Shown here in pieces: positions 15,510 to 37,565 of a stretch of 50,867 nt of DNA; the stretch's first letter is position 1; the number at the start of each line of letters is the position of its first letter. Origin of the DNA: Candidatus Geothermincola secundus (GTDB lineage Bacteria > Actinomycetota > Geothermincolia > Geothermincolales > Geothermincolaceae); contig JACVIY010000002.1 in NCBI GenBank assembly GCA_015711755.1, forward strand, positions 1-50,867. The letters run 5' to 3'. The notes below the pieces were generated by a model. That model worked only from the letters and a program-made list of their open reading frames with translations, ran no database searches and was not told the DNA's origin. Position numbers and translations under genes: made by a program.

Positions 15510-17888
15510 TCAGACGCATGTGCGGGAGATTATCTCCTCCTTGACCCCGTCGGGCAGGTCGTCGAAATAGGCGCAGTATCCCGCCACCCTGACCACCAGC
15601 CCGGGATGCTTCCCGGGATGGCGGCGGGCATCCTTCAGCAGTTCCGGGTCCAGCACGTTGAACTGCACCTCCATGCCCCCCGCAGCGCCGTAGGCCTCGA
15701 TGAGCGCCGCCAGCCTGGAGACTCCCTCCTCCCCCCGCAGGGTTCTCGGGTCGAAGCTGAGGTTGAGGGCGTAGCCGTTGGGCGCGAGAGGGGGAGGGAC
15801 CGAGCAGACCGAGCGGATGACGGCGGTGGGACCCTTACGGTCGCAGCCGCCTGCCGGGCTCAGGCTGGAAGCGAAGGGCTCCCCCGATCCCCTTCCGCTG
15901 GGAAGCGCCCCGGTTCGCCTGCCGAAAGCCACATGGCATGTCACCGAGTAAAAGCCGGCCACATAGGGCCCTCCCCGCTCGCTCCGGTAAGGCCGAAGGC
16001 AGCGGTTGAACATCTCGGCGGTCCACCGGGCGTAACCGTCGGGGAGGGGATGGTCGTTGCCGAACTTCGGCGCTTGCTTGAGTTCGGCCCGCAGGCGCGC
16101 GCGCTCGGGAGAGCCGCGAAAATCGCAGCGGAGCGCCTCCGCCACCTCTCCCATGCTGTGGCTCTTCCTGCGGAAGACCACCTCCTCCAGGGCGGCCAGG
16201 GAATCGGCCACATCCGCCAGTCCCACCCCCTGCACCCCGCTGGAAACGTAGCGGGCCCCTCCCTCGGTGAGGTCCCTGCCGCTCTCCGGGCAACCCTCCA
16301 CCAGGAGCGAGGAGAAGGGGGTGGGGTGATATTCGCGGTTTCCCCTCTCGATGAGCCGGAAATCCTCCATCATGCGTCCCAGCTGATACCGCACCTGGGC
16401 CTCGAATGCATCCAGCACGTCCTCCATGCTGCGGAAGGAAGCGGGGTCGGGCGTCGCTGTCCCCTCCCGGCGGCGCTTACCGAAGCGCCTGCCCCTGTTG
16501 AGCGCCAGTTCCAGACAGACGGGCAGGTTGAAGAGCCCGGCATCGGTGGAGAAGAAGCTCTTGCCGGGCAGCGACAGCTCCACGCATCCCACGATGCCGT
16601 AATCTCTCGCTTCTTCCAGCGGGTAACCCGATGAGGTGAGCGCCTCCACCGCCGCCTCGTCGCAATAGACCGCGGGCATGCCCTTCCCCTCCTGGGCCAC
16701 CTCGGCCACCCTCTCCAGGTAGCGGCGGGGAGAGCCGGCATGCACCCTCGCCTGGAAATTGGGGTCGCGCAGGCCGTATCCCTCCATGGCCTCGAGGAAG
16801 AGCATGGTCAGGTCGTTGACCGCGTCCCCGCCATCGCGGTCCATCCCCCCGATGGTAACCGCCTGGACCACCAGGTAACCGCCGTGGTATTCGCTTATGC
16901 GCTGCGAGAGCAGGAAGACGTGCTCCACCGCCTTGGCGGAGAAGCAGCGCAGTAGCTCCAGGGCCCGCTGTCGGGTGATGCGGCCCTCCTCGAGATCCCT
17001 GCGGTAATAAGGGTAGAGGTACTGGTCGGCGCGCCCGAAGGACACCGCGGAGTTGAGCCCCTCCAGTATGACCGCCAGGTGGGTGAGCCACAGCGACTGC
17101 AGGGCCTCATGGAAGGTGCGCGCCGGGCCGGCGGGGACTCGGCGGAGGATGCCCGCCATCTCCTCCAGTTCCTCCCTTCGCCGGCGATCCCTTTCCGCCC
17201 GGGCCTGCCTCTCCGCCTCCCGCGCCAGCCGCTCCGCGTAGGAGACGAGGCCCTCGAGGGCGATGCGGGCAGCGGCGTGAAAGGGGCCGTCCATCCCCTC
17301 GATCCTCTCGAGGAATCCCTCCGCCCCCAGGCGCAGCATCTCCGGATAACCCGGGATGAAGTGGCCGATGCCTCCCGCCTCGTTGATGAGATAGTAGGTG
17401 GGGTCGAGCTGTTCCCTCACGTATCCTGCCAGGCGACCGCTGCCGGCCAGGGCGCGCCAGGGCAGGTTGCGTCGGGCCCAGTAAGGGAAGACCCGAAAGA
17501 CAAGGTCGGCCCGCTCCCGCAGGGAAATCTCCAAAGGGGTCACCTTGCGCCGGCCTATCCAGAGAAGGTCCTCGCTCATCCACAGGGAGGCGAGCTCCGG
17601 CTGCAGCAGGGCGGAGACGCGGTGCGAGCCGGGGTTGCCCGCTATGAGCTCGTCCGGCCAGATGCGGGCGGACTTGTTGCAGAGAAGGTGGCGCAGGGCG
17701 CGGGCCCTGCGCAACGCCATGGGCGCTTCGGGTTCATCGTGGTGCCGGAAATAATCGGTGATAAGCGCGGCGCGTTCGGTGTCGAGGCAGACCGGCTCCC
17801 GTAGGAGCGCTTCCCTGATGCGGGAGAAGCGGTCGGAGCCGCGCTCTCCCTCAGTGACCCTCATGACCGAAGCCGTCTCCCGGGTCAT
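15510..17888 (-). CDS. Glycyl radical enzyme, GCVE-type (pyruvate formate-lyase 2 family), substrate unknown
   Basis: This 792-residue enzyme (from the ATG at 17888) has the active-site loop [15 protein letters not shown] (Cys435, Glu437) and the glycyl-radical loop [14 protein letters not shown] near the C-terminus (Gly770). CxE motifs of this kind occur in glycerol/diol dehydratases, choline lyase, hydroxyproline dehydratase and arylacetate decarboxylases, so it carries out a radical lyase reaction, not the two-cysteine reaction of true PFL. The specific substrate cannot be inferred. No activase is adjacent; two lie about 6-8 kb away. The start is uncertain (17963, 17888, 17864 are all possible), since the 5' end overlaps the DUF2007 gene. 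Confidence 0.88.
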
Positions 17889-18165
17889 CCTCTCCACCAC
17901 CTCTCGGCGTACCGCCCACCTCAGCACCAGCGGCTCTTTCGCGCAAACGCAGCAGTAGGCCACGGGCTCCCTCCAGCTCCTCCGGCGGCACCAGCACCCT
18001 GCTCAGGCCCACGCTGCCGAAATAGGGGCGGGGGACATCGGTTAGCTCGTAAGGGTGGAAGCCCTCCTCCTCGAGGATTCCCCTCACCAGCTCGGCCTCC
18101 ATGTACTCCCCGGTGAAGACCACCGGGAGTTCCCTGCCGCGCCGCAGGCAATCGAGCCAGCCCAT
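17851..18165 (-). CDS. DUF2007 (putative signal-transducing) protein
   Basis: This 104-residue protein has the DUF2007 core LPVVFTGEYMEAELVRGILEEEGF followed by YFGSVGLSRVLVPPEELEGARGLLLRL (residues 13-75), a small ferredoxin-like fold related to PII-type regulators. The last 30 residues are Gly/Asp-rich and disordered, and their codons overlap the start of the glycyl radical enzyme. The arrangement suggests co-transcription with that enzyme, but no functional connection is established. Only a weak GAGGG site precedes the ATG. Confidence 0.75.
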   Translation of the reverse strand: MGWLDCLRRGRELPVVFTGEYMEAELVRGILEEEGFHPYELTDVPRPYFGSVGLSRVLVPPEELEGARGLLLRLRERAAGAEVGGTPRGGGEDDPGDGFGHEGH

Positions 18166-20373: not shown

Positions 20374-21759
20374 TCACAGGAGAAGCGAGGATATGGCGCG
20401 GTCCAGGTCCTCCAGGTTGCGGCATACCCGCGCCTCCTTGAGATGGGGCATGTATTCCCCCATCACGCTGTCCCCGGTATCCCAGAAGGGCCGCGGCTCG
20501 GGGTTGAGCCAGATGATGCCGCGGGAACGGCGGGCCATGTTCTCCAGTGCTCCCGCGCAGGGGTCGTTCTGGTTGTTGCGCGCGTCCCCTATTATCAATA
20601 TGTAGGTGCGGTACCCCACGTCCTGCAGGTATTCATCGCAGAACTGGCGGAAGACGCTGCCGAAATCGGAGCGTGCGTAGTAGACGATGTCCGCCTCCTG
20701 CAGGGCCATGCGCACGCCCTCCTCGATGCTCTCCTCGTCGAAGAAGGAGGTCACCTCGCCCAGCTCGTCCACGAAGACGAAGGAGCGCACCCGGGCCAGG
20801 CAGTCCTGGATGGTATATACGAACCGCAGCATGAACTGTGATACCCTGGCCACCGAGCTGGATACGTCGCAGAGCACCAAGAGCTCCACCTTCTCCCGCC
20901 GGCGGCGCCTCATCACCAGGCGGAAGGGTATGCCCCCGTGCTGCATGTTGCGCCGCAGGGTGCCCTTGACGTCCAGGCGACCGCGGCTCGAGCTCTTCTC
21001 CCGCAGGGCCAGCTTGTTGCGCAGCCGCCGCGCCAGGGCGTAGACGGCTTCCCGCATCAGCTGCAGCTCGGCCTCGTCCAGCTCCGACAGCGGCCTTCCC
21101 ATCAGGCGCTTCATCCTCTCGGACCGCGAAGCCCCGCCGGCTCGCCTGGTCTGCTCCCTTTCCACGAACCGCCGCACCGCCGAGCGGAACTCTTCCCGCA
21201 GCTCTTCGAAAATCCGGCGCAGCTCCTCAAGAGAGCCCTCCTCCCATCCCGCTTCCCGCAGGAGCTCCAGCAGTCGCGCCAGCTCCGCCTCCGCTCCTTC
21301 CCAATCGAAGGAGTCGAAGATACGCCGTGTGTACATGCCCACCTGCTGCCGTGTTTGGAGCTGAGAGGTCCCCACGCCTCGGGCACCCTGCCTGATGAGG
21401 GTCTCCCATTCTCCTCCCTGCCCCGTCAAGAGCGTCATCAACAGGAGGGCACCCGCCGCTTCGCCTTCCCGGGCCGCGAGCTCCAGCTCTTCCTCGAGCT
21501 TCCTTTTGAGATCATCGTCCAGCGCCCCGTCATCCTCGGGGCGAGGGAGCCCGTAAAAATAGAGGGGGAACAGCTCCTCGAAGACGGAGAGGTCCCGCGA
21601 GCGCTTGATCAGGGTGGACCGCAGGGCCGTTTTGAAGAAAACGAGGTCGGTCAGGTCCACTGCCCTCAAGGCCCGCAGCGCGTCCATCACCTCAGCCGGC
21701 GACACAGGTATCCCGGCGCCGCGCAGTCCTTCGATGAAATCCATGACCCTATCCTGCAA
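20374..21759 (-). CDS. VWA-domain protein, CoxE type
   Basis: This 461-residue protein has a charged helical N-terminal region (1-285) and a von Willebrand A domain with the MIDAS motif DVSSS (Asp298, Ser300, Ser302), FVDELGEVTSFF and YILIIGDARNN. CoxE-like VWA proteins pair with MoxR AAA+ ATPases, as here (32 bases from the MoxR gene), to remodel or insert metal into partner enzymes. It is the last gene of a minus-strand run that begins at the X-succinate synthase (29504), so the client may be that enzyme. That link is inferred from position only. Confidence 0.88.
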   Translation of the reverse strand: MQDRVMDFIEGLRGAGIPVSPAEVMDALRALRAVDLTDLVFFKTALRSTLIKRSRDLSVFEELFPLYFYGLPRPEDDGALDDDLKRKLEEELELAAREGEAAGALLLMTLLTGQGGEWETLIRQGARGVGTSQLQTRQQVGMYTRRIFDSFDWEGAEAELARLLELLREAGWEEGSLEELRRIFEELREEFRSAVRRFVEREQTRRAGGASRSERMKRLMGRPLSELDEAELQLMREAVYALARRLRNKLALREKSSSRGRLDVKGTLRRNMQHGGIPFRLVMRRRRREKVELLVLCDVSSSVARVSQFMLRFVYTIQDCLARVRSFVFVDELGEVTSFFDEESIEEGVRMALQEADIVYYARSDFGSVFRQFCDEYLQDVGYRTYILIIGDARNNQNDPCAGALENMARRSRGIIWLNPEPRPFWDTGDSVMGEYMPHLKEARVCRNLEDLDRAISSLLL

Positions 21760-21791
21760 AGCCCGCCTCCCCGGTCTTCACGCAGTCTCCG

Positions 21792-22745
21792 TCAGTCCGC
21801 AAGCAGGCGCGCGCTCTCTGCTACTTTAGCGATGTCCTTCTCGTATTTGAGGATGACGTTGAGCGTACCCCTCAGTGTATCCCGGTCGAGCTTCTCCGCG
21901 TTGAGGACCAGCAGGGCCCGTGCCCAGTCCAGGGTCTCGCTGATGCCGGGGGGCTTCTTCAGGTCCAGCTTGCGTATGCGCTGCACCGCCTCCACCACCT
22001 GCGCGGCCAGCTCCTCCCTGATGCCCGGCACCTTGGCCAGCACGATGGCGGTCTCCCGTTCCCTCCCGGGGAAATCCAGGTAGAGATGGAGGCAGCGCCT
22101 CTTCAGGGCGTCGCTCATCTCCCGGGAGTTGTTGCTGGTGAGCACGACCATGGGGATATGCCTGGCGGTTATCGTGCCTATCTCGGGTATGGATACCTGG
22201 AAATCGGAGAGCACCTCCAGCAGGAAGGCCTCGAACTCCGGGTCGGATTTGTCCACCTCATCGATGAGCAGCACCGCCGGCTCATCGGAGATGATGGCCC
22301 GCAGCAGAGGCCGGGGGACCACGAACTTCCGGGAGAAGAAGACCTCGTCCTGCCGGGCCACTCTCTCCACCGCCTCGGCCAGGGAGCTGACCCCGGCCAG
22401 CTCCTGCGCCAGCACGTCCTTGAGGATCTGGGTGTAGAGCAGCTGCTTGGCGTATTCCCATTCATACAGCGCCTTGGACTCGTCAAGCCCCTCGTAACAC
22501 TGCAGGCGGATGAACTCCCATCCCAGGGCGGCGGCGACCACCTTGCCCAGATCGGTCTTGCCCACGCCCGCAGGGCCCTCGACCAGCAGGGGCTTTCGCA
22601 GCTGCTGCGCCAGATAGATAACTGTCGCCGTTTCCCGGCTGCATATATACCCCTGTTCCGCCAGCCGCTCCACGACCTCCTGCGGATCGCCGAACATCTC
22701 GCCGCTCCCTTCCCGGCCCGGGGGACCGCCCTCCCGGCCGCTCAT
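21792..22745 (-). CDS. MoxR-family AAA+ ATPase
   Basis: This 317-residue AAA+ protein has Walker A VEGPAGVGKTDL, Walker B AVLLIDEVDKSDPEFEAFLLEVL, sensor 1 VVLTSNNSREMSDALKRRCL and a lid with PPGISETLDWARALLVL. This is the CoxD/NorQ-like MoxR branch, which acts with VWA proteins in enzyme maturation; benzylsuccinate synthase operons carry a related ATPase (BssE). Its ATG overlaps the HD gene stop by four bases (ATGA). An internal ATG at 22697, preceded by AAGGGAG, would remove a 16-residue Gly-rich lead and fits the family equally well. Confidence 0.92.
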   Translation of the reverse strand: MSGREGGPPGREGSGEMFGDPQEVVERLAEQGYICSRETATVIYLAQQLRKPLLVEGPAGVGKTDLGKVVAAALGWEFIRLQCYEGLDESKALYEWEYAKQLLYTQILKDVLAQELAGVSSLAEAVERVARQDEVFFSRKFVVPRPLLRAIISDEPAVLLIDEVDKSDPEFEAFLLEVLSDFQVSIPEIGTITARHIPMVVLTSNNSREMSDALKRRCLHLYLDFPGRERETAIVLAKVPGIREELAAQVVEAVQRIRKLDLKKPPGISETLDWARALLVLNAEKLDRDTLRGTLNVILKYEKDIAKVAESARLLAD

Positions 22746-24349: not shown

Positions 24350-25273
24350 TCATCCGCCTACGGTCACTTCAAGGTCCCGCAACAGGAAGACCTCCACGAT
24401 CTCGCGCAGTCTTTCCTCGGGGTATCCCTCACCTTGCGGGAAGGGGTATTCCAATCCGAACACGCGGTATTTGGCTCCCGCATAGGGGTGGTATGGGAGC
24501 ACGTCCACTTCCAGGCCGCCTGCCGCCTGTTGCCGCAGCCCGGCCACGAAAGCGGCGGTGGCCTTCAGGTTTTCCTCATCATCGTTCACCCCGGGTATGA
24601 GCGGCACCCGCACCCGCATGGCCACTCCCGACTCCGCAACCCTGCGGGCGTTCTCCAGGATGAGGCCGTTGGAGCGCCCGCAGAAGGCGCGATGCCTGTC
24701 AGGGTCCATGTGCTTGATGTCGTAGAGCACGAAATCGGCGCCCTCAAGGGCCTTTTTCAGCTTCTCCCAGGGCGCGTGCCCGCAGGTATCCAGGGCGGTG
24801 TGTATGCCCCTTTCCTTTGCCGCTTTCAAGAGGGCCGCCGCGAACTCCGGCTGGGCCAGGGGCTCACCTCCGGAGAGGGTCATGCCGCCCCCTGAATTGC
24901 GGTAGAAGGGCTTGTCCCGCTCCACCTCCGCCATTATCTCCTCAACGCCGGCCTCCCTACCCCAGACCACCATGGCCTCATGGGGGCAGGCCTCGGCGCA
25001 AGAAAAGCAATCGATGCACCTGCCCTTGTCGATGCGCGGCCTGCGTTCCCCCGCCATGGATATCGCCCCCGCCGGACAGATCTCCATGCAAGTTCCGCAA
25101 CCCTCGCAGTTGGGCGAGTAGGGGAAGACCTCCGGGAAGCGCCGATTTCCCTCGGGATTGTGGCACCAGCGGCAGTTGAGCAGGCATCCCTTGAGGAAGA
25201 CGGTGGTGCGGATGCCCGGTCCGTCGCATAGGGAATATGTCTGTATGTCGGTGATGTACCCCTTGATGTCCAT
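24350..25273 (-). CDS. Glycyl radical enzyme activase 1 (radical SAM)
   Basis: This 307-residue activase generates the glycyl radical by 5'-deoxyadenosyl chemistry. It carries the radical-SAM motif C30-x3-C34-x2-C37 (KGCLLNCRWC), two inserted ferredoxin clusters (CEGCGTCMEIC and CIDCFSCAEAC) typical of activases outside the PFL type, the SAM-binding GGGMTLSGGEPL and VRVPLIPGVNDD. It lies nine bases downstream of a second activase. One of the pair should serve the X-succinate synthase of this operon. The other could serve the glycyl radical enzyme at 15510-17888, which has none beside it. Confidence 0.93.
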   Translation of the reverse strand: MDIKGYITDIQTYSLCDGPGIRTTVFLKGCLLNCRWCHNPEGNRRFPEVFPYSPNCEGCGTCMEICPAGAISMAGERRPRIDKGRCIDCFSCAEACPHEAMVVWGREAGVEEIMAEVERDKPFYRNSGGGMTLSGGEPLAQPEFAAALLKAAKERGIHTALDTCGHAPWEKLKKALEGADFVLYDIKHMDPDRHRAFCGRSNGLILENARRVAESGVAMRVRVPLIPGVNDDEENLKATAAFVAGLRQQAAGGLEVDVLPYHPYAGAKYRVFGLEYPFPQGEGYPEERLREIVEVFLLRDLEVTVGG

Positions 25274-25282
25274 TTCCGCTCC

Positions 25283-26230
25283 CTATCCCCCGATGGTGGT
25301 CTTGATGCCCCTGCCCTCCAGGATCTCCCGGAAGTCCTCAACGTCGTATTCGGAGAGGCTTTCCGTCTCCTCATAGTCCCATTCCCTCCCCAGCCAGCGG
25401 TACTTGTCCTGGCACCAGTTGTGGAAGGGCAGTATGTCCACCTGAAGCAGGGCCGGTTTGAGCGTTTCCAGGAACTCGGCTATACGCCCCATCTGCTCGG
25501 TGGAGTCGTTGAAGCCGGGGATCACCGGCACCCGCACTATGATGCTCTCGCCCTCACAGGCAAGCCGGGCCAGGTTGGCGAGTATGGGCGAGTTGCTCAC
25601 CCCGGTGCGCAGAAGGTGCAGCTTTCCGCTCAGGCACTTGATGTCGTAGAGAAAGATGTCCACGTAGGGCCGGAGGGAATCCAGTACCTCCCAGGAGCAG
25701 AACCCGCTGGTGTCCAGGCAGGTATGGATGCCGCGGCGCTTGGCCTCACTCAGCAGCGCCAAGGTGAAGCGGGGAAAGCTGGTCGGCTCACCGCCGGTCA
25801 GCGTGAGCCCCCCCTCCGAGTTGTTGTAGAAAGGGATGTCCCGCTCAACCTCATCCAGTATCTCTTCCACGGTCATCCTCTCGCCCACCCGCAACAGGGC
25901 TTCATAGATGCACGCTTCCACGCATTTCATGCAGCGGTCGCACTTCTCGCGGTCTATCTTGTGGTAATGACGGCCCTCGTCATCGGGGTCCAGTTCCACC
26001 GGAGGTTGTACGGCACCTTGCGGGCACGCGTCGAAGCAGCGTCCGCACTGCCGGCAGAGGCTCTGCTTCCAGTAGATCTCGGGCCTGAAATCGATGCACT
26101 CGGGGTTATGGCACCAAGCACACTGCAGGGCGCATCCCTTGAGGAAGACGGTGGTGCGGATGCCCGGCCCGTCGTTTATGGAGAACCTCTGGATGTTGGT
26201 GACGTAGGCCTTCTCGCCGTCCTCGTGCAT
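25283..26230 (-). CDS. Glycyl radical enzyme activase 2 (radical SAM, BssD/AssD-like)
   Basis: This 315-residue activase has the radical-SAM motif C33-x3-C37-x2-C40 (KGCALQCAWC), two ferredoxin-like cluster motifs (CRQCGRCFDAC and CDRCMKCVEAC), GGLTLTGGEPTSF and VRVPVIPGFND. The sequence from VTNIQRFSINDGPGIRTTVFLKGC is close to the other activase but the two differ throughout, so they are paralogs, not a recent duplication. As the first activase gene after the synthase and its small subunit, it is the more likely BssD-type partner, by order only. Confidence 0.93.
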   Translation of the reverse strand: MHEDGEKAYVTNIQRFSINDGPGIRTTVFLKGCALQCAWCHNPECIDFRPEIYWKQSLCRQCGRCFDACPQGAVQPPVELDPDDEGRHYHKIDREKCDRCMKCVEACIYEALLRVGERMTVEEILDEVERDIPFYNNSEGGLTLTGGEPTSFPRFTLALLSEAKRRGIHTCLDTSGFCSWEVLDSLRPYVDIFLYDIKCLSGKLHLLRTGVSNSPILANLARLACEGESIIVRVPVIPGFNDSTEQMGRIAEFLETLKPALLQVDILPFHNWCQDKYRWLGREWDYEETESLSEYDVEDFREILEGRGIKTTIGG

Positions 26231-26999: not shown

Positions 27000-29504
27000 T
27001 CAGCTGCCCAGCGACTGCACGTTGCGGGCGATGATGGTGTCCTGGGTCTTCTTGTTGAGGTCGATGAAGTGAGCCGAGTAACCGGCTATGCGCACGATGA
27101 GCTCGGGGTACTTCTCCGGCTCCTTCTGGGCCGCCTTAAGCGTCTCGTTGTCCACCATGTTGAACTGCACGTGGTCGATGCCCAGATCCGCCCAGGTCTT
27201 TATGTAGGAATGCCAGATCTGGAAGCCCTTCTCCCCCGCCAGCTGGGTGGGATTGAGCCGCTGGTTGAGCAGGGTGGCTCGCACCGCCCCGATGTGGTCT
27301 ATCTTGGCGACAGAGCGGAGCACTGCCGTGGGCCCCTTCTTGTCCAATCCCGCCCCCGGCGAGCAGCCCCCATCGTAAAGGGTATCGCCCAGCCGCCTCC
27401 CGTTAGGCAGCGCCCACACTTTGGTGGCATTGGTAACGTAGGCGGCGATATTCTCCGGAAGCGGCGGCCAGGGGTTCCCGGTGGGATCCTTTATCTCCCA
27501 CGAATGGGCGGCCACGTCGTTATGGCAGCGCACGTGGATTTGATCCACATAATCGTCATCGTTGCCCCACTTGGGAGCGCGCACGAAATCCATGCGCATC
27601 TCCTCATAGCCCTCCCAGTTGTTGCGGAGGGCCTCGATGAGCTGAGCCATGGTGTATTTCCTCTCATCGAAGACGAGCTTTTTCACCGCGGCCAGGGAAT
27701 CCCCCGTCTCCATCCAAGCGAAGAAGGTAATCCAGGAGTTGCCCCGCTCGCTGGGGTGAGCGGAGTCCACCCCCAGGTCCACGCAGCGCTCGTAGATGGC
27801 CGAGAGGAATGGCCGCGGGTCCAGCTCGGAGGAGTTGTAACGGCCCGCCCCGGTCACCTTGGTGAGCGTGTCCATCATCCACTTGATCTGGGTGTACCAG
27901 GCTTGATAGAGCTCCTCGAAGCTCTCGAACTTGGAAGCGTCCCCGGTGTGGGGGCCGAACTGCATCTGCAGCACCTGATCGAACCCGTCGAAGAGCGCGT
28001 ATTCCATGGCCTTGGCGGCGATGATGGTGGCATTGGCCATGCGGAAAGGCTGACAGCCCCATTTGGTGTCGGGGCAGGGGGACATGCAGGCCTGATGCAC
28101 CCAGCGCCTTGCTTCCTTGAGGGGATGGCGGTGCCAATGCATGGCGTTGGCGATGAGGATGGGATCGTTGCGCATGGAGGGATAGCCCAGCCCCTGGCGG
28201 ATGCACTCGAAGACGTTGCGCAGCGTCTGCATGCGCACCTGTGGATGGTAACGGAAGGCGAAGGTGGGGTTGGCCACCCTCACCAGCCGCGCCGCCTCCA
28301 GCAGGCAGTCGGTCATGTCGTTGCAGGCGTCGGTCCCGTCCTCGTTGACCCCCCCCAGGGTCCATACCCAGGTACCGGTGATGCCCTGCAGGGTGTCTCT
28401 CGCCAGCATCAACCAGAACCAGCCCACTTCGTAGCAGCGGATGAGGAACTCTCCGGTGAGGTCGAGGGCCTCTTCCTTCGTCAGCACCTTGTCCTGATTG
28501 ACATCCTTGTCGTAGAAGGGCCCGTGCCAGTAGTCGGGCCGGGCGGGCCAGGCCCCGTCGCAGGCCTCGTAGCGGGTTAGTATCTGTACGAAGTGGTCGA
28601 ACTGCAAGGATTCCCACAGATGCTCCGGCGGTCTTGCCGGCACCTTCCAGCAGGTCTCGGCGATGCGTTCCAGCTCCTGCTTGCGCTGCGGGTCGGTCTC
28701 GAAGTTCTCGGCGATTATGCGCGCCAGCCGGCTGTAGCGGCGGGCCCAGCGCACGGCCGCCTCCAGGGTTATCTTCATGGCCTTCCAGATGTCCAGCTTC
28801 TTGTAATACTCGTAGTCCTCAGGCTCGGGCACCCTGCGGTATATCCTCTCCTCCGCCTCCGCCATTTTCGCGTCGATCTCGGCGATGATACCCTCGAAAC
28901 CCAGGCGGAACATGTAGTCCCACTGCTTGGTGCAGTAGCCGATGCGGTGTATGGGAAGCCCCCAGCCTATGGCCCCGGTCATCAGCTTGACTATCTCCTC
29001 AGGGGGCAGCTTGGAGAACATCTTGGTCCCGGCGGTCTGGGGGTTCCAGTAATCGCAGATCTCCCTGATGATGCGCAGGCTCCGCTCCTCCGGCTCGGGG
29101 ATGACCGTGCGGTCGTTGTAGAGGTCCTCGTTGAGGAGGAAGAGTATCTCGGGGTGCCAGACGATGGTATGCGGGCGCGAGCCGAGGTAGCCCATTATCT
29201 GAGCGTGGTCCTGGATGAAGATGGTTATGTTGTCCCATACGTGGGCCAGGGCCTTGGCATGCCTGATGATCAGGGGGTCATGTTCGTTGGCCTGAAAGGC
29301 CTGGGTATAGAGGATGGGCCTTTCCAGATCCACTTTCACCCCGGGCTGATAGCCCGAGCCCTTGGCCCCCTTCTTCCAGACCGCCTTTCGCAGGTAATCG
29401 AGGCGTTTGGATCGCTTCTGCTCGGCCCACCACCACCATTGCCCGCTCTTTTCGATCTCCTCGATGCTCCTCATCTCCACAGCCGACATCTTTGGACCCC
29501 CCAT
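27000..29504 (-). CDS. X-succinate synthase large subunit (alkylsuccinate/benzylsuccinate synthase family glycyl radical enzyme)
   Basis: This 834-residue enzyme has the active-site loop VHQACMSPCPDT (Cys473), the fumarate-binding Arg488 fifteen residues later (QPFRMANAT), the segment QFGPHTGDASKFESFEELYQAW, and the radical loop VRIAGYSAHFIDL (Gly808). The spacing matches benzylsuccinate synthase, where I recall Cys493, Arg508 and Gly829. Such enzymes abstract hydrogen from a hydrocarbon and add the radical to fumarate. The linked mutase, CoA ligase and decarboxylase-like genes favour an alkane or alkyl substrate over toluene, whose route uses a CoA-transferase (bbs genes). AAGGA precedes the ATG at 29504. 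Exact substrate is inferred. Confidence 0.9.
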   Translation of the reverse strand: MGGPKMSAVEMRSIEEIEKSGQWWWWAEQKRSKRLDYLRKAVWKKGAKGSGYQPGVKVDLERPILYTQAFQANEHDPLIIRHAKALAHVWDNITIFIQDHAQIMGYLGSRPHTIVWHPEILFLLNEDLYNDRTVIPEPEERSLRIIREICDYWNPQTAGTKMFSKLPPEEIVKLMTGAIGWGLPIHRIGYCTKQWDYMFRLGFEGIIAEIDAKMAEAEERIYRRVPEPEDYEYYKKLDIWKAMKITLEAAVRWARRYSRLARIIAENFETDPQRKQELERIAETCWKVPARPPEHLWESLQFDHFVQILTRYEACDGAWPARPDYWHGPFYDKDVNQDKVLTKEEALDLTGEFLIRCYEVGWFWLMLARDTLQGITGTWVWTLGGVNEDGTDACNDMTDCLLEAARLVRVANPTFAFRYHPQVRMQTLRNVFECIRQGLGYPSMRNDPILIANAMHWHRHPLKEARRWVHQACMSPCPDTKWGCQPFRMANATIIAAKAMEYALFDGFDQVLQMQFGPHTGDASKFESFEELYQAWYTQIKWMMDTLTKVTGAGRYNSSELDPRPFLSAIYERCVDLGVDSAHPSERGNSWITFFAWMETGDSLAAVKKLVFDERKYTMAQLIEALRNNWEGYEEMRMDFVRAPKWGNDDDYVDQIHVRCHNDVAAHSWEIKDPTGNPWPPLPENIAAYVTNATKVWALPNGRRLGDTLYDGGCSPGAGLDKKGPTAVLRSVAKIDHIGAVRATLLNQRLNPTQLAGEKGFQIWHSYIKTWADLGIDHVQFNMVDNETLKAAQKEPEKYPELIVRIAGYSAHFIDLNKKTQDTIIARNVQSLGS

Positions 29505-29882: not shown

Positions 29883-31247
29883 TCATGAGCCGTAGAGGGC
29901 CATCAACTCCCCCAGATCCTCAAGCCGCTCCAGGCCCTTGAGCATATCAAGAGTCCTCTCCGCCACCTCGCGGCTCTTCAGCAGCTGTACGCATTCCAGG
30001 TATTTATCATGGATCTGCTCCTCGCTCATGGCATTGCCCGGCTCGCCCAGCGGTCTTTCCACATCCGCCTCGAAGACCGCCCCGTCCTTCATGGCCACGG
30101 TCAGATGGGCGGCGAAGGGGCTGACGGCCTCCCCCTCCAGGTCCTGCCAGACAAAGCGGGATATGGCCTCGGAGATATCCTCGCCGACAACCCTCTCATC
30201 GGTGAATTGGCGCACCCCCACCTTTCCGTCCAGGAGCGCGGCGCTCACGCAGAACTCCAGACTGAACTTTCCCTCCAGCCCGGAGCGGGGGCGGTGGTAA
30301 GTCAGCACGCCCCTCAGCCAGGAAGGAACCCGGCACTCCACGCGCTCCAGCGACGCTGGGTCCATATCGCCCCTGTCCTCGAGCACCTGCCGCCTTACCA
30401 GCAGCGCAGCGTCTATCGCTCCCTGGGGACCGCGGCAGCAGGGGTAGGGCTTGAAGCTCAGACCGGGGTCGAGCAATTCCCAAGGTCGTCCCAGAGAGGA
30501 GGCCATCTCGGCCGCCCGATGAGTATCCCCGGACAGGCAGCGGGCCAGGCCGTTCTCCCCGAAGAGGCAGTCGGGGTTGGCGGTGAACCTTTGTTCCGCG
30601 AGCTGCGCCGCCATGACCCCCTGCATGGCGGCGAGTCCCGCGTGCAGGGGTTTGGTCATGGTCCCGAAATTGGCGCGCACTCCGTTGGCCATGGAGCAGG
30701 CAATACCCAAAGCGTGGGCGGCTTCTTCCTCCCCAAGGCCCAGCAGCCTGCTGCAGGACGCCGCTGCTCCCAGCGTGCCCATGACGCTGGTCATATGCCA
30801 GCCGATGGCGTAGGGGTTGCCCCCCAGAGCCTGCCCCGCTTTGGCGGCGACTTCCAGCCCCGCTATGTAAGCGAGGATGCAGTCGCGCCCGCTTCTGCCC
30901 CTCTCCTCGGCTATGGCTATCACCGCCGGCACCAAAGCCACCGAGGGATGGCCGAGCATGCGGAAGCACACGTCATCGTAATCCAGGGCATGCGCCGCCG
31001 TCCCGTTGGCCAGGGCCGCCCAAGGAGCCGAGGTCTTCGAGCCGTTCAGGAGCAAGGTCGAGGACGGACGCCCCCCCAAGGCCACCGCCCACCGCGTCGC
31101 GATGCGCGAGGATTCGTCCTCCAGTCCCGCAAGGGCCACACCCATGCAGTCGATGATGGGCAGAACGGCGGCCCTCTTCGCTTCCTCCGGGATGTCCCCA
31201 TAATCCAGCCCGCATACCCAACGAGCAACATCCATCAATTCATCCAT
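29883..31247 (-). CDS. MmgE/PrpD family protein (2-methylcitrate dehydratase/aconitate decarboxylase-like)
   Basis: This 454-residue protein has the MmgE/PrpD fold: an N-terminal helical domain with PIIDCMGVALAG, GTAAHALDYDDVCFRMLGHPSVALVPAVIAIAEE, and GWHMTSVMGTLGAAASCSRLLGL, then a C-terminal domain with FKPYPCCRGPQGAIDAALL. Members dehydrate 2-methylcitrate, decarboxylate cis-aconitate or act on other tricarboxylates and succinates. Here it lies alone between the divergent synthase operon and the mutase operon, on the minus strand, with AAGGGGG upstream of the ATG. It might process a substituted succinate or help regenerate fumarate; neither can be shown. Confidence 0.85.
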   Translation of the reverse strand: MDELMDVARWVCGLDYGDIPEEAKRAAVLPIIDCMGVALAGLEDESSRIATRWAVALGGRPSSTLLLNGSKTSAPWAALANGTAAHALDYDDVCFRMLGHPSVALVPAVIAIAEERGRSGRDCILAYIAGLEVAAKAGQALGGNPYAIGWHMTSVMGTLGAAASCSRLLGLGEEEAAHALGIACSMANGVRANFGTMTKPLHAGLAAMQGVMAAQLAEQRFTANPDCLFGENGLARCLSGDTHRAAEMASSLGRPWELLDPGLSFKPYPCCRGPQGAIDAALLVRRQVLEDRGDMDPASLERVECRVPSWLRGVLTYHRPRSGLEGKFSLEFCVSAALLDGKVGVRQFTDERVVGEDISEAISRFVWQDLEGEAVSPFAAHLTVAMKDGAVFEADVERPLGEPGNAMSEEQIHDKYLECVQLLKSREVAERTLDMLKGLERLEDLGELMALYGS

Positions 31248-31662: not shown

Positions 31663-32079
31663 ATGGCGCGGAGTTCAACCGAACCCGGAAAGAGGGTGAG
31701 GGTCATGGTCGCCAAGCCGGGGCTGGACGGCCATGACCGAGGCGCGAAAGTCCTGGCTCTGGCTCTGAAGGATGCCGGCATGGAGGTCATCTATCTGGGA
31801 TTGCGCCAATCACCCGAGAGCATCGCCCGCAGCGCGGTGGACGAGAATGTGGACGTGGTCTGCCTCAGTTGTCTTTCGGGAGCCCACAACCACCTCTTCC
31901 CCGAAGTGGTGAGGAAGCTGCGCGAGATGGGGGCGGGGGATATCCCCGTACTGGGAGGAGGCCTCATACCGGAGGAGGACCGCGATTTCCTGAGGAGCGA
32001 GGGCGTGGCCGAGGTCTTCTCCCCCACCGTGCCGATGAAGGAGGTCGTCAGGCGTATAGAGGAGTTGGCGCAGCGATGA
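31663..32079 (+). CDS. Cobalamin-binding small subunit of an acyl-CoA mutase (McmB/McmS-like)
   Basis: This 138-residue B12-binding domain has the DxHxxG motif in PGLDGHDRGAKV (the base-off histidine), then SCLSGAHNHLFPEV and GGGLIPEEDRDFL. It is the small subunit of a two-chain adenosylcobalamin-dependent mutase whose large subunit starts 54 bases downstream. An AAAAGGAG site precedes the ATG. In two-subunit methylmalonyl-CoA mutases and in the carbon-skeleton mutases linked to alkylsuccinate synthase (mcmS type), this protein carries the cofactor. It is the first gene of the mutase-ligase operon. Confidence 0.94.
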   Translation: MARSSTEPGKRVRVMVAKPGLDGHDRGAKVLALALKDAGMEVIYLGLRQSPESIARSAVDENVDVVCLSCLSGAHNHLFPEVVRKLREMGAGDIPVLGGGLIPEEDRDFLRSEGVAEVFSPTVPMKEVVRRIEELAQR

Positions 32080-32133: not shown

Positions 32134-33804
32134 ATGACCAAGGATAATGATCCCGCGACGCTTCGCCAGGCTTACGAGAACTGGCGCAATGAAGTGCTGG
32201 CCCGAACCGCCGCCAAATGGGGGCGCAGCCTGGAAGACATGCCCAAGAGCGTCTATACGCCCCTTGACCTGGAGGATCACGATTACCTGAGGGATCTGGG
32301 CTTCCCCGGGCAGTATCCTTTCACCCGCGGAGTCTACCCCACCGCCATACCCGGCGGGCTCTTCGGCGTCCGCCAGTACTCCGGTTTCGGCACGGCCGAG
32401 GAGACCCGCGATCGGCTGCGCTACCTCATCGGCAGAGGCCAAGCCGGGTTCAGTCTGGCCTCAGACCTTCCCACCCAGATCGGCTACGACTCCGACCATC
32501 CCCTGGCCCGGGGAGAGATAGGCCGCATCGGGGTGGCCATCGATACATTGGAAGATTTGGACACGATCCTTGAGGCCTTCGAAGATAAGACGCAGCCCTT
32601 CGTGAGCCGCCCCTCTTTCACCGCCAACTCTCAGGCCGCGGTGATCATCGCCATGTTCGTCGCCCTTGCCGATAAATACGGGGTGCCCCTGGAGAACATC
32701 ACCGGCACCATACAAAACGACATCCTCAAGGAGTACGTGGCCCGCGGCACCTACATCTACCCGCCGCGTCCCTCGCTGAAGCTGGTGGGCGACACCATCG
32801 AGTTCTGCGCGAAGCGCATGCCCCGCTTCAACTTCATCAGCATCTCCGGCTACCATATCCGCGAGGCGGGCGCCTCACCCGCCCAAGAGATAGCCTTCAC
32901 CCTTTCCAACGGCATAGCCTATGTCGAGGAGGGCCTGCGCCGCGGCCTCTCGGTGGACGATTTCGCCCCGCGCATCTCCTTCATCTTCGCCTCGGGCATC
33001 CTCTTCTTCGAGGAAGTGGCCAAGTTCCGCGCCTGCCGGCGCATCTGGGCCAGGACCATGAAGGAGCGTTTCGGGGCATCCAAGCCTGATTCCCAGAAGC
33101 TCCGCTTCGCTTCCGGCTTCGCCGGCTCCACTTACACCTCCCGCCGCCCGCTCAACAACATCATACGAGCCACCATCGAGTGCTTCGCTTCCATAGCCGG
33201 GGGAGCCACCGGCAGCGCGGTAGCCCCCTATGACGAAGCCATCTGCCTCCCCACCGAGGAAAGCAGCCTCATCGCTCTGGACACGCCGCGCATACTGGGG
33301 TACGAGGCCAAGGTCACCGACGTTAACGACCCCCTGGGGGGGTCCTACTACGTGGAAGCCCTCACCGATCAGCTGGAGGAGGAGGCTCTCTCCATCATGC
33401 GCGTTATCGAGGACATGGGAGGAGCGGTCGCGGCAATCGAGAACGGCTACATGCAGGGGGAGATCGCCAAAGGGGCTTACGAGCAGTTCAAGCAGATGGA
33501 GTCGGGGGAGAAGACGGTGGTGGGTGTGAACCGCTTCGAGACCGAGGAGTTCACCGTATGCGAGACCTTCCGGCTGGACCCCCAGGTGGAGGAAAAACAA
33601 CTGAAGCGTCTGGCTGCGGCTAAGAAAAGGCGCGATCCCGCCGCGGTCAGGGATTCGCTGAAGCGCTTAAGGGGAGCGGCCGAGAGGGATGAGAACGTGA
33701 TGGAGCCGCTCCTGGATGCGGTCAAGCGCAATGCCACGGTGGGCGAGATATGCGACGTCTTCCGCGATGTATGGGGGGAGTACAGGCCGCCTCAGGGAAT
33801 CTGA
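32134..33804 (+). CDS. Acyl-CoA mutase large subunit (methylmalonyl-CoA mutase family)
   Basis: This 556-residue catalytic subunit (TIM barrel, no B12 domain) has VRQYSGFGTAEET (Tyr82, matching MCM Tyr89), TIQNDILKEYVARGTYIYPP (Arg204, matching Arg207, which binds the substrate carboxylate) and SISGYHIREAGA (His241, matching His244). Tyr plus Arg indicates a dicarboxylyl-CoA substrate, unlike isobutyryl-CoA mutases (Phe and Gln). The usual FRPW just before VRQY is replaced by GGLF, and about four residues are inserted near VSRPSFTAN. These changes suit a bulkier substrate such as an alkylsuccinyl-CoA. GGAGG lies six bases before the ATG. Confidence 0.92.
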   Translation: MTKDNDPATLRQAYENWRNEVLARTAAKWGRSLEDMPKSVYTPLDLEDHDYLRDLGFPGQYPFTRGVYPTAIPGGLFGVRQYSGFGTAEETRDRLRYLIGRGQAGFSLASDLPTQIGYDSDHPLARGEIGRIGVAIDTLEDLDTILEAFEDKTQPFVSRPSFTANSQAAVIIAMFVALADKYGVPLENITGTIQNDILKEYVARGTYIYPPRPSLKLVGDTIEFCAKRMPRFNFISISGYHIREAGASPAQEIAFTLSNGIAYVEEGLRRGLSVDDFAPRISFIFASGILFFEEVAKFRACRRIWARTMKERFGASKPDSQKLRFASGFAGSTYTSRRPLNNIIRATIECFASIAGGATGSAVAPYDEAICLPTEESSLIALDTPRILGYEAKVTDVNDPLGGSYYVEALTDQLEEEALSIMRVIEDMGGAVAAIENGYMQGEIAKGAYEQFKQMESGEKTVVGVNRFETEEFTVCETFRLDPQVEEKQLKRLAAAKKRRDPAAVRDSLKRLRGAAERDENVMEPLLDAVKRNATVGEICDVFRDVWGEYRPPQGI

Positions 33805-33904
33805 AAAACGAGGCTTGAGGCGCCGGAGTGCCGTGCCCTGCGTGGACTGCCTTTGCCGCCGTCCGTCATAGATCTTTGTAAGATGAGAACAGGGGGTGTT
33901 CGAG

Positions 33905-35443
33905 ATGAACGTGGGGGAGTGGGCTTATAAGCGATCCATCAACCCTCTTTCCGGGAACAAAGTGGCCTTCGTGGCCGAGGGCAGGGAATACACTTACCGC
34001 GATTTCAACAAGAGGGTCAACCGCCTGGCCAACGGCCTTCTTTCGCTGGGGCTGCGCAAAGGGGACCGCGTGGCCGGACTCTTCTTCAACTGCGTCCCCT
34101 TCATGGACGCCTATTTCGCCTGCGCCAAGTGCGGCTTCATCTGGGTGCCGCTGAACTTCCGCCTCACCGCCTCCGAGCTGGCGGGCCTCTTCGAGGATAC
34201 CCGGCCCCGCGCCTTTCTCTTCCATTCGGAGTTCAACGACCGGGTGACCGAGCTTCGGGGACTGTACGACAAACCGCTTGAACTATGGGCGGTAGCGGGC
34301 GAGCCGGTGCCCGACTTCGCCGAGGACTACGAAGCGTGGGCAGCCGGTTTCGACGATTCGGAGCCGAGGGCGCCGGAGCCGCCGGACATGGAGGACCCCC
34401 AGATGCTCATGTTCACCTCCGGTACCACCGGCAAGCCCAAAGGCGCGCTGCTGCCCCACCGCAAGACCTTCTTCAACACCTTCAACGACGTTCTCGAGCT
34501 TCTCTTCGATTCCAACGCCGTATCCCTGGTCTCCATACCCATATTCCACTCGGGGGGCATCAACATCATCACCATGCCCACCTTCTACTGCGGGGGCACG
34601 GTCATCTTCCAGAAGTTCTGGAACCCCCAGGAGGCTCTCCAGATCATCAACGACCGCAAGGTGACCCATTTCGGGGCGGTGCCCACCATGCTGCAGATGA
34701 TGCTGGACGTGCCCGACTTCGAGCGCTATGACCTGAGCTCCCTGCGGGGAGTGGGCATCGGCGGCTCTCCCGCCTCCCGGGAGCTCCTGGAGAACATCCG
34801 CGACCGCATGAAAGTGCCCCTGGTGGCCCAGGTCTTCGGATGCACCGAGACCTCGGTGGTATGCTACTGCACCAACATGGAGAAGATAGGCAGCGCGGGG
34901 CTGCCCCAGTTCCTGGGAGACGTCAAGGTGATCAAGGAGGACGGGAGCGAGGTCACTCCAGGTTCCGGTGAAGTGGGGGAGGTCTGCGCCAGGGGGCCCA
35001 TGGTCATGTTGGGTTACTGGAACAACCCCGAGGCCACCGCCGAGGCCATCGTCGACGGCTGGTTCCACTTCGGCGACCTGGCCACCGTGGACGAGGACGG
35101 ATACATCTACATAGTCGACCGCAAGAAGGACATGATCATCAGCGGCGGCGAGAACATCTATCCCGCCGAGGTCGAGAAGGTGCTGTCCACCCACCCCGCC
35201 GTCGCCGACGTGGCGGTGATCGGCGCGCCCGATCCAAAATGGGGCGAGGTGGGGCTGGCCCTGGTGGTCCCGCGGGAGGGGCGGGAAATAACCCTTCAGG
35301 AAATAGAGGATTTCTGCGAAGGCAAACTGGCCCGCTATAAGATACCCAAGCAGCTTTTAAAGGTGGAGTCCATCCCCCGCACCCTCACCGGTAAGATACT
35401 GAAGAAGGAGCTGCGGCAGGCCTACCTGGAACAGCGGAGCTGA
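33905..35443 (+). CDS. Acyl-CoA synthetase (AMP-forming), AssK-like candidate
   Basis: This 512-residue ANL-superfamily ligase has the P-loop MFTSGTTGKPKGALLPH, the A5 region QVFGCTETS, GWFHFGDLATVDEDGYIYIVDRKKDMIISGGENIYPAEVE and the catalytic Lys in PRTLTGKILKKELR. It would activate a carboxylic acid with ATP and CoA. In alkane-degrading anaerobes a similar enzyme (AssK) forms alkylsuccinyl-CoA for the mutase; the location between mutase and crotonase genes fits. I choose the ATG at 33905 with GGGGG eight bases upstream rather than the GTG at 33896. Substrate is inferred from context. Confidence 0.92.
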   Translation: MNVGEWAYKRSINPLSGNKVAFVAEGREYTYRDFNKRVNRLANGLLSLGLRKGDRVAGLFFNCVPFMDAYFACAKCGFIWVPLNFRLTASELAGLFEDTRPRAFLFHSEFNDRVTELRGLYDKPLELWAVAGEPVPDFAEDYEAWAAGFDDSEPRAPEPPDMEDPQMLMFTSGTTGKPKGALLPHRKTFFNTFNDVLELLFDSNAVSLVSIPIFHSGGINIITMPTFYCGGTVIFQKFWNPQEALQIINDRKVTHFGAVPTMLQMMLDVPDFERYDLSSLRGVGIGGSPASRELLENIRDRMKVPLVAQVFGCTETSVVCYCTNMEKIGSAGLPQFLGDVKVIKEDGSEVTPGSGEVGEVCARGPMVMLGYWNNPEATAEAIVDGWFHFGDLATVDEDGYIYIVDRKKDMIISGGENIYPAEVEKVLSTHPAVADVAVIGAPDPKWGEVGLALVVPREGREITLQEIEDFCEGKLARYKIPKQLLKVESIPRTLTGKILKKELRQAYLEQRS

Positions 35444-35485: not shown

Positions 35486-36286
35486 ATGACCGAAGGGAAC
35501 GAGCTGTTGGTGGAGAGAGACGGGCCGGTGGCACTGCTGACCCTGAACCGCCCGGAGAAGCGCAACGCCCTGTCCTCTTCCCTTCTGGTGTCGCTGGTCG
35601 GGGCCCTGCGGGACCTGGAAGCGGAGGGCGAGGTGCGCTGCGTGGTCCTGCGCGGGGCCGGCGATAAGGCCTTTTCCGCCGGGATGGACCTCTCCGCTCT
35701 GCCGGAAGGCATACCCGCCGACATACAGTCCCTCATCGAGGAGAAGGGGCCGCTGGCCTACGGCCTGGACGCGGTGGAGGAATGCCCGCTCCCGGTCATC
35801 GCCATGATCCGCGGTTGGTGCCTGGGGGCGGGCTGCGAAACCGCCATGGCCTGCGATCTGCGGGTGGGCGCCGCGGGGTGCCGCATGGGCATGCCGCCGG
35901 CGCGCCTGGGCATCGTCTACCCGCCGGAGGGCCTAAACCGCTTCTTACGCGCCGTCGGGCCCTCGGTGACCCGCAAGATATTCCTCACCGCGCGCTACTT
36001 CGAGGGCGAGGAGGCGCTGGCCGGCGGGATGCTGCACTACCTGGTGCCGGACGACCGGCTGGAGGAGTTCACCATGGATCTGGCGCGTGAGGTGGCCGGG
36101 CTCGCTCCCCTTTCCCTGGCCGGGCATAAGCGCTCCCTTTTCCACCTCACCCGCCCGTCCCCTCTTTCCGCGGAGGCGCGGTCGGAGATCGACGGGCTGA
36201 TGGCCCGGGCCCTGGCCAGCGAGGATGCCCGCGAGGGCCTGGCCGCCTTCGTCCAGAAGAGGGAGCCGCGTTTCACCGGAAAGTAG
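35486..36286 (+). CDS. Crotonase-superfamily protein, candidate (alkyl)malonyl-CoA decarboxylase
   Basis: This 266-residue crotonase has the oxyanion-hole segments FSAGMDLS and WCLGAGCETAMACDL (Glu118), and ARLGIVYPPEG with Tyr145. The second catalytic Glu of enoyl-CoA hydratases is absent. As I recall E. coli methylmalonyl-CoA decarboxylase (YgfG/ScpB), its Glu113 and Tyr140 align here, and the stretches TARYFEGEEALAGGMLHYLV and the final EDAREGLAAFVQKREPRFTGK-like end also match; its His66 is Met67 here. Decarboxylation of alkylmalonyl-CoA is the step needed after the mutase. It could still be a hydratase or isomerase. Confidence 0.8.
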   Translation: MTEGNELLVERDGPVALLTLNRPEKRNALSSSLLVSLVGALRDLEAEGEVRCVVLRGAGDKAFSAGMDLSALPEGIPADIQSLIEEKGPLAYGLDAVEECPLPVIAMIRGWCLGAGCETAMACDLRVGAAGCRMGMPPARLGIVYPPEGLNRFLRAVGPSVTRKIFLTARYFEGEEALAGGMLHYLVPDDRLEEFTMDLAREVAGLAPLSLAGHKRSLFHLTRPSPLSAEARSEIDGLMARALASEDAREGLAAFVQKREPRFTGK

Positions 36287-36367: not shown

Positions 36368-36745
36368 TCAGCTGCTCTTCCAGAGCCCGTGGAGGTTGCA
36401 GTACTCGCGGGCGGTGACACCCTCTCGGGGAACCGCGAACCTGCCCTCGGGAGCTATGCCCGGCTTGAGGAAGATGCGGAAAGAAGAGTCGCCGGCGACG
36501 ATCTGCACCCACTCGATATAATGGTCGTCCTGCATGGGGTGAGCCACCTCGCCCACCTTGACCAGCACGCCGTCCTCGGCGACCTCCACCACGGGTACGT
36601 GTTTCTCCACCGCGGCGTCCACCATTCCCTCGACCTGCAGCGCCATGGGCTGCCCGCAGCAGACCAGCTCGCCCTTGCCCGCGTGCAGCACTTCCACGAT
36701 GTTCCCGCAGATCTCGCACTTGTAGACCTGTAGCCTTTCCGTCAT
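36368..36745 (-). CDS. dfx: Desulfoferrodoxin (superoxide reductase)
   Basis: This 125-residue protein has an N-terminal desulforedoxin-type iron site (Cys10, Cys13, Cys29, Cys30 in YKCEICG and LVCCGQPM). The C-terminal neelaredoxin domain has EKHVPV, HPMQDDHYIEWVQI and CNLHGLW, supplying the His4-Cys centre. It reduces superoxide to hydrogen peroxide, a protection typical of anaerobes. AAGGAGG lies ten bases before the ATG at 36745; a longer upstream frame has no similarity. It is a single gene, convergent with the mutase operon. Confidence 0.96.
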   Translation of the reverse strand: MTERLQVYKCEICGNIVEVLHAGKGELVCCGQPMALQVEGMVDAAVEKHVPVVEVAEDGVLVKVGEVAHPMQDDHYIEWVQIVAGDSSFRIFLKPGIAPEGRFAVPREGVTAREYCNLHGLWKSS

Positions 36746-37489: not shown

Positions 37490-37565
37490 GGGCCGCTAGC
37501 TCAGTCGGCAGAGCACCGGACTTTTAATCCGGGTGTCCTGGGTTCGAGCCCCAGGCGGCCCACCA
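37490..37565 (+). tRNA. tRNA-Lys (anticodon TTT, CCA encoded)
   Basis: The acceptor stem pairs GGGCCGC (37490-37496) with GCGGCCC (37555-37561). The D arm has GCTCAGTCGGCAGAGC, the anticodon loop is CTTTTAA with anticodon TTT at 37523-37525, and the T arm is CCTGG-GTTCGAGC-CCAGG. The discriminator A and an encoded CCA end the 76-base gene. All arms pair. Confidence 0.97.

Follow-up and report, generated by a model that had tools for sequence, protein, structure and literature searches.

A 266-residue crotonase-fold protein, encoded by a stop-free reading frame at positions 35486 to 36286 of the forward strand, is probably a cofactor-free decarboxylase of the YgfG type that acts on (2-methylalkyl)malonyl-CoA in the alkylsuccinate pathway; its reaction, its substrate and the roles of its residues are predictions. 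The window, that is, the whole stretch of 50,867 nucleotides analyzed here, opens contig C2 in a metagenome-assembled genome (MAG) of 2.39 Mb and 83% completeness. This MAG is of the Geothermincolia type within Actinomycetota, and its closest named relatives are Candidatus Solincola and further unclassified Actinomycetota MAGs. The initial annotation had suggested an alkylmalonyl-CoA decarboxylase, and this interpretation gained support, at the level of sequence and structure prediction, from the conserved ligase-crotonase-AssA gene order, the MasD relationship of the neighboring synthase, the absence of the usual carboxyltransferase candidates, the Tyr/Arg type of the mutase and the structural match.

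The crotonase gene belongs to a forward-strand operon comprising the small, B12-binding mutase subunit mutS (31663 to 32079; TIGR00640, 2.7e-46), the large subunit of the B12-dependent acyl-CoA mutase, mutL (32134 to 33804), an AMP-forming acyl-CoA ligase presumed to be an AssK-like alkylsuccinate-CoA ligase (33896 to 35443, start approximate; Pfam AMP-binding, 4e-83) and the crotonase itself, with intergenic gaps of 54, ~100, and 42 bp, and GAGGAGGA was found upstream of the crotonase start. Since the next gene, encoding a desulfoferrodoxin (superoxide reductase; 36368 to 36745) convergent with the crotonase, lies on the opposite strand, the crotonase is the last operon gene in the window, and the gene coordinates agree with the initial annotation on this point. 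A tRNA-Lys gene is located near the desulfoferrodoxin (37490 to 37565). Upstream of the operon, the reverse strand carries the catalytic subunit of a glycyl-radical alkylsuccinate synthase (AssA/MasD; 27000 to 29504; Pfam PFL-like and Gly_radical), whose best solved relative is the 1-methyl-alkyl-succinate synthase MasD (9o8u, 1126 bits), followed by TutD (542), together with its radical-SAM activase (25283 to 26230; TIGR02494, 2.5e-103, and synteny) and a second radical-SAM glycyl-radical activase in tandem (24350 to 25273; synteny). AssA/MasD, ligase, and B12 mutase are thus linked as in an alkylsuccinate (fumarate addition) cluster, and the MasD-like enzyme with its two activases bears out the earlier assumption that this pathway is present at the locus. 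An MmgE/PrpD-family protein (29883 to 31247, reverse strand) is retained in every intact alkylsuccinate cluster among the relatives and is also reported from the ass cluster of Desulfoglaeba alkanexedens (PMC7180275). Past the activases, the synthase strand also encodes a MadB-like AAA ATPase and a MadC-like VWA protein (20374 to 22745), and a second glycyl-radical enzyme of 817 aa (15510 to 17963, reverse strand) scored 615 bits with TIGR01774, under the model cut-off.

In the proposed pathway, AssA would form (1-methylalkyl)succinate by fumarate addition, the ligase would convert this product to its CoA thioester, the mutase would shift the CoA-carbonyl group to give (2-methylalkyl)malonyl-CoA, and the crotonase would release the free carboxyl as CO2, yielding 4-methylalkanoyl-CoA for beta-oxidation. 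Enzymes of the crotonase superfamily are known to work through an oxyanion hole and an enolate (PMC1431709). The fold and the comparison with YgfG suggest that the thioester enolate, once CO2 is lost, would be held in an oxyanion hole made of backbone NH groups close to Met67 and Ala115, and that Tyr145 and Glu118 would line the pocket in which hydratases place their two acid-base glutamates; by analogy with YgfG, these two side chains may orient the carboxylate and/or protonate the enolate. The open literature consulted gave no account of what Tyr140 does in YgfG.

Membership in the crotonase superfamily was indicated by Pfam ECH_1 (5e-48) and by the crotonase fold of the AlphaFold model and its PDB matches. 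A 60-sequence alignment paired E118 with YgfG E113, P138 with P133, and Y145 with Y140. The initial annotation had placed Glu118 and Tyr145 opposite YgfG Glu113 and Tyr140 at a constant offset and had reported the second hydratase glutamate as missing; the offset is indeed 5 at both positions, and Pro138, like Pro133 of YgfG, occupies the site of that glutamate. The protein therefore has the Glu113/Tyr140 equivalents of a YgfG-like decarboxylase and just the first of the two catalytic glutamates of an enoyl-CoA hydratase. At the same three sites, hydratases carry Glu, Glu, and in most cases Pro or Ala, and PaaF, CaiD, FadB, and the Metallosphaera 3HP-CoA dehydratase are each E/E/P in the alignment. 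E/P/Y was found in 15 of 16 close homologues (50 to 70% identity), the remaining one being E/S/Y, with E118 and Y145 conserved in all 16. None of the other crotonases compared from the same genome has the set, and own_L001, L003, L004, L005, and L007 carry both glutamates. Because the pattern is kept in close homologues and absent from these other crotonases, it is not due to chance.

Among NCBIfam models, the crotonase scored 215 with PRK06127, 192 with PRK06144, and 181 with the methylmalonyl-CoA decarboxylase model NF008506, each below the respective cut-off; assignment to the strict NF008506 equivalog (curated cut-off, 257 bits) was not made. Across 296 genomes from the phylum, the methylmalonyl-CoA decarboxylase model reached 1e-55 with close homologues of the crotonase only. 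With the PRK06127 model, neither the phylum sample nor the controls gave matches at the threshold applied. Phylogenetic analysis grouped the crotonase family with YgfG at 98/92, and at 100/99 after the active-site columns had been deleted and five sequences with long branches or strong divergence omitted. In a wider tree with PRK06127, PRK06144, and others added, the crotonase family, YgfG, and a haloarchaeal E/P/Y protein formed one group (93/83). This haloarchaeal protein (L151:1483-2262) is plasmid encoded, is annotated as "enoyl-CoA hydratase-related," and scored 236 bits with the methylmalonyl-CoA decarboxylase model (cut-off, 257).

Clustering with enoyl-CoA hydratases or isomerases, which the initial annotation had regarded as evidence against a decarboxylase, did not occur in the trees, and holding the crotonase family with the hydratases was rejected in the approximately unbiased (AU) test (p=0.007). 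A clade with PRK06127 was not rejected (p=0.295), and this test does not decide for YgfG. Thus, there is good support for excluding the crotonase from the hydratases and fair support for placing YgfG as the nearest relative of the family. A hydratase or isomerase for the beta-oxidation of 4-methylalkanoyl-CoA would agree with the Pfam family name and the overall crotonase fold, and the downstream pathway needs a hydratase too. However, residues, tree, and AU test all speak against such an enzyme, the second catalytic glutamate being Pro in nearly all close homologues, and both glutamates are present in other crotonases of the genome; we therefore rejected this reading as decidedly improbable.

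The predicted structure is also consistent with a YgfG-type decarboxylase. In the AlphaFold model (pLDDT, 91.5; pTM, 0.89), the comparison with YgfG proposed at the outset gave three methylmalonyl-CoA decarboxylase crystal structures as the best matches, at ranks 1 to 3 in VIA-align (Z, 32.3, 31.8, and 31.3; 251 to 252 residues aligned), followed by MenB (Z, 30.6; ~208 residues), where Z differences below 1 count as ties. Foldseek TM-scores among the matches listed were 0.86 to 0.88 for methylmalonyl-CoA decarboxylase and 0.70 to 0.82 for the others; ordered by E-value, several hydratases rank ahead. EchA6 of Mycobacterium tuberculosis likewise matches the crotonase model over its full length, and the function is not established by this modeled fold alone.

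The mutase provides a further indication of the substrate. Four large mutase subunits were found in the genome, and only the one in the window has both the Tyr of an RQY motif and the Arg of an ARGTY motif, which we take to be the residues with which methylmalonyl-CoA mutase binds the carboxylate of its substrate; the mutases of the relatives' clusters carry the same Tyr and Arg. Another large subunit of this genome (C151) has Phe/Gln at these sites, presumably as in isobutyryl-CoA mutase. The best PDB match of the window mutase, the hydroxyisobutyryl-CoA mutase 4r3u, has Ile/Gln there, and this assignment was rejected. A mutase with Tyr/Arg fits a succinyl-type substrate, and its product would be a substituted malonyl-CoA, so that decarboxylation would be needed. 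The window subunit is 46% identical to that of the relatives' clusters: the large mutase subunit is exchanged in the window genome, and ligase, crotonase, and AssA are kept.

The same residues, found in this mutase alone within the genome, would also suit a methylmalonyl-CoA decarboxylase proper, with the mutase converting succinyl-CoA to methylmalonyl-CoA and the crotonase yielding propionyl-CoA, as in E. coli scpABC, and alkanes being no substrate; mutase and YgfG share one operon in E. coli and Yersinia. We consider this unlikely, since the linkage to acyl-CoA ligase and AssA is fixed in relatives, no ScpC-like CoA transferase was identified within the cluster, and the cluster mutases are only 35 to 38% identical to the E. 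coli mutase.

The decarboxylation step in known alkane degraders had been described initially as usually ascribed to carboxylase/decarboxylase subunits, and published accounts indeed name a carboxyltransferase or propionyl-CoA carboxylase (PccB) (PMC9576796, PMC8163825, PMC6776118), the genes for post-activation steps being stated as unclear (PMC8163825). The only Carboxyl_trans proteins of the genome are AccD and AccA (287 and 279 aa), encoded beside AccC, FabH, and FabG; given this location inside a fatty-acid synthesis cluster, they were rejected as the decarboxylase. Two AssA-positive relatives (G005 and G008) have the same AccA/AccD set, no Carboxyl_trans protein was found above threshold in AssA-positive G010, G011, G012, and G016, and G003 differs in having one larger carboxyltransferase. 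Most AssA-positive genomes have no PccB/MmdA-type carboxyltransferase, and OAD_beta, the beta subunit of sodium-pump decarboxylases, was not found in genomes of the order. A search for malonyl-CoA decarboxylase (PF05292) gave no match, yet control genomes were silent as well. AccA/AccD or another enzyme could act instead. On balance, and with less assurance than for the reaction itself, we favor the view that the crotonase lineage is a dedicated (2-methylalkyl)malonyl-CoA decarboxylase in Geothermincolia, which would replace the presumed biotin-dependent carboxyltransferase, so that the step would no longer conserve energy or serve transcarboxylation.

Relatives within Actinomycetota, represented by incomplete MAGs, were surveyed. 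AssA was detected in 10 of 18 genomes of the order, the window genome included, and the crotonase gene in nine of these 10; in the tenth (G010), the contig breaks at the locus, one contig beginning with PrpD and another with AssA. Six genomes (G005, G008, G009, G011, G012, and G016) show the full series of mutL2, radical SAM/PDZ, mutS, PrpD (reverse), ligase, crotonase, AssA, and activase in this order, and the same cluster is split or partial in G001 and G003. The crotonase lies between ligase and AssA in every intact relative cluster, with assA directly after it, unlike in the window; the cluster ligases, 70 to 72% identical to the window ligase, adjoin the crotonase upstream in both. The radical-SAM protein with a PDZ domain separates the large from the small mutase subunit in the relatives' clusters (L028:3619-5643, L113, L116, and L117) and is absent there in the window.

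Homologues with the same residues also occur in AssA-free genomes (G006, G007, G013, and G018 to G027). G013 retains mutase, ligase, and crotonase, with no AssA in the ~3 kb left of the contig, and in G006 the crotonase stands by itself. A diverged branch (50 to 56%) in G007 and other families of the class (L121 to L125) is located elsewhere, adjoining a PaaG-like crotonase in some genomes, and one genome with this branch (G018) is without any B12 acyl-CoA mutase. Given these homologues, the family probably predates alkane degradation or extends beyond it, and its substrate in AssA-free genomes may be another malonyl-CoA derivative. The diverged homologues, including the mutase-less case and those beside the PaaG-like protein, would also fit a metabolite-repair decarboxylase (compare ECHDC1 for ethylmalonyl-CoA) or another E/P/Y reaction, recruited beside AssA and not acting on its product. 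We give this very little credence in view of the strict ligase-AssA position in all intact clusters and because no other decarboxylase candidate was found.

Assignments of the alkylsuccinate-pathway decarboxylase in the literature found are no more than guesses, and a single protein, small, soluble, and open to a clear-cut assay, would render this step directly testable. If the crotonase is this decarboxylase, CO2 would be released without a biotin or sodium-pump machine, which would affect the energetics of anaerobic alkane breakdown. Moreover, an automatic "enoyl-CoA hydratase" label, as on the window crotonase, can conceal a pathway enzyme.

Compared with known systems, the carboxyltransferase, PccB, or "mcd" proteins proposed in D. 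alkenivorans AK-01, Hermodarchaeota, Atribacteria, and Ca. Alkanivorans would serve the same step as the crotonase, but they are unrelated biotin-dependent enzymes that were not found in most AssA-positive genomes examined. The PRK06127 "enoyl-CoA hydratases" share with the crotonase its top NCBIfam score, the absence of the second Glu and, in one member of the two examined, a Tyr at the position of Tyr145; however, both bona fide members have Ala for Glu118 and adjacent CoA-transferases, and the crotonase falls under the PRK06127 cut-off. ECHDC1, the ethylmalonyl-CoA decarboxylase, is a crotonase-fold decarboxylase of a malonyl-CoA derivative. E. coli YgfG/ScpB (PDB 1ef8, 1ef9, and 6n92) shares the full-length fold (Z, 32.3; 252 residues), the E113/P133/Y140 equivalents, and an operon with a B12 mutase, whereas the crotonase is ~32% identical to it, scores below the NF008506 cut-off, and has an acyl-CoA ligase and an alkylsuccinate synthase as neighbors where YgfG has MeaB and a CoA transferase. 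YgfG is a known example of a crotonase-type decarboxylase; to judge from the literature found, a dedicated role for such an enzyme in alkylsuccinate degradation would be new.
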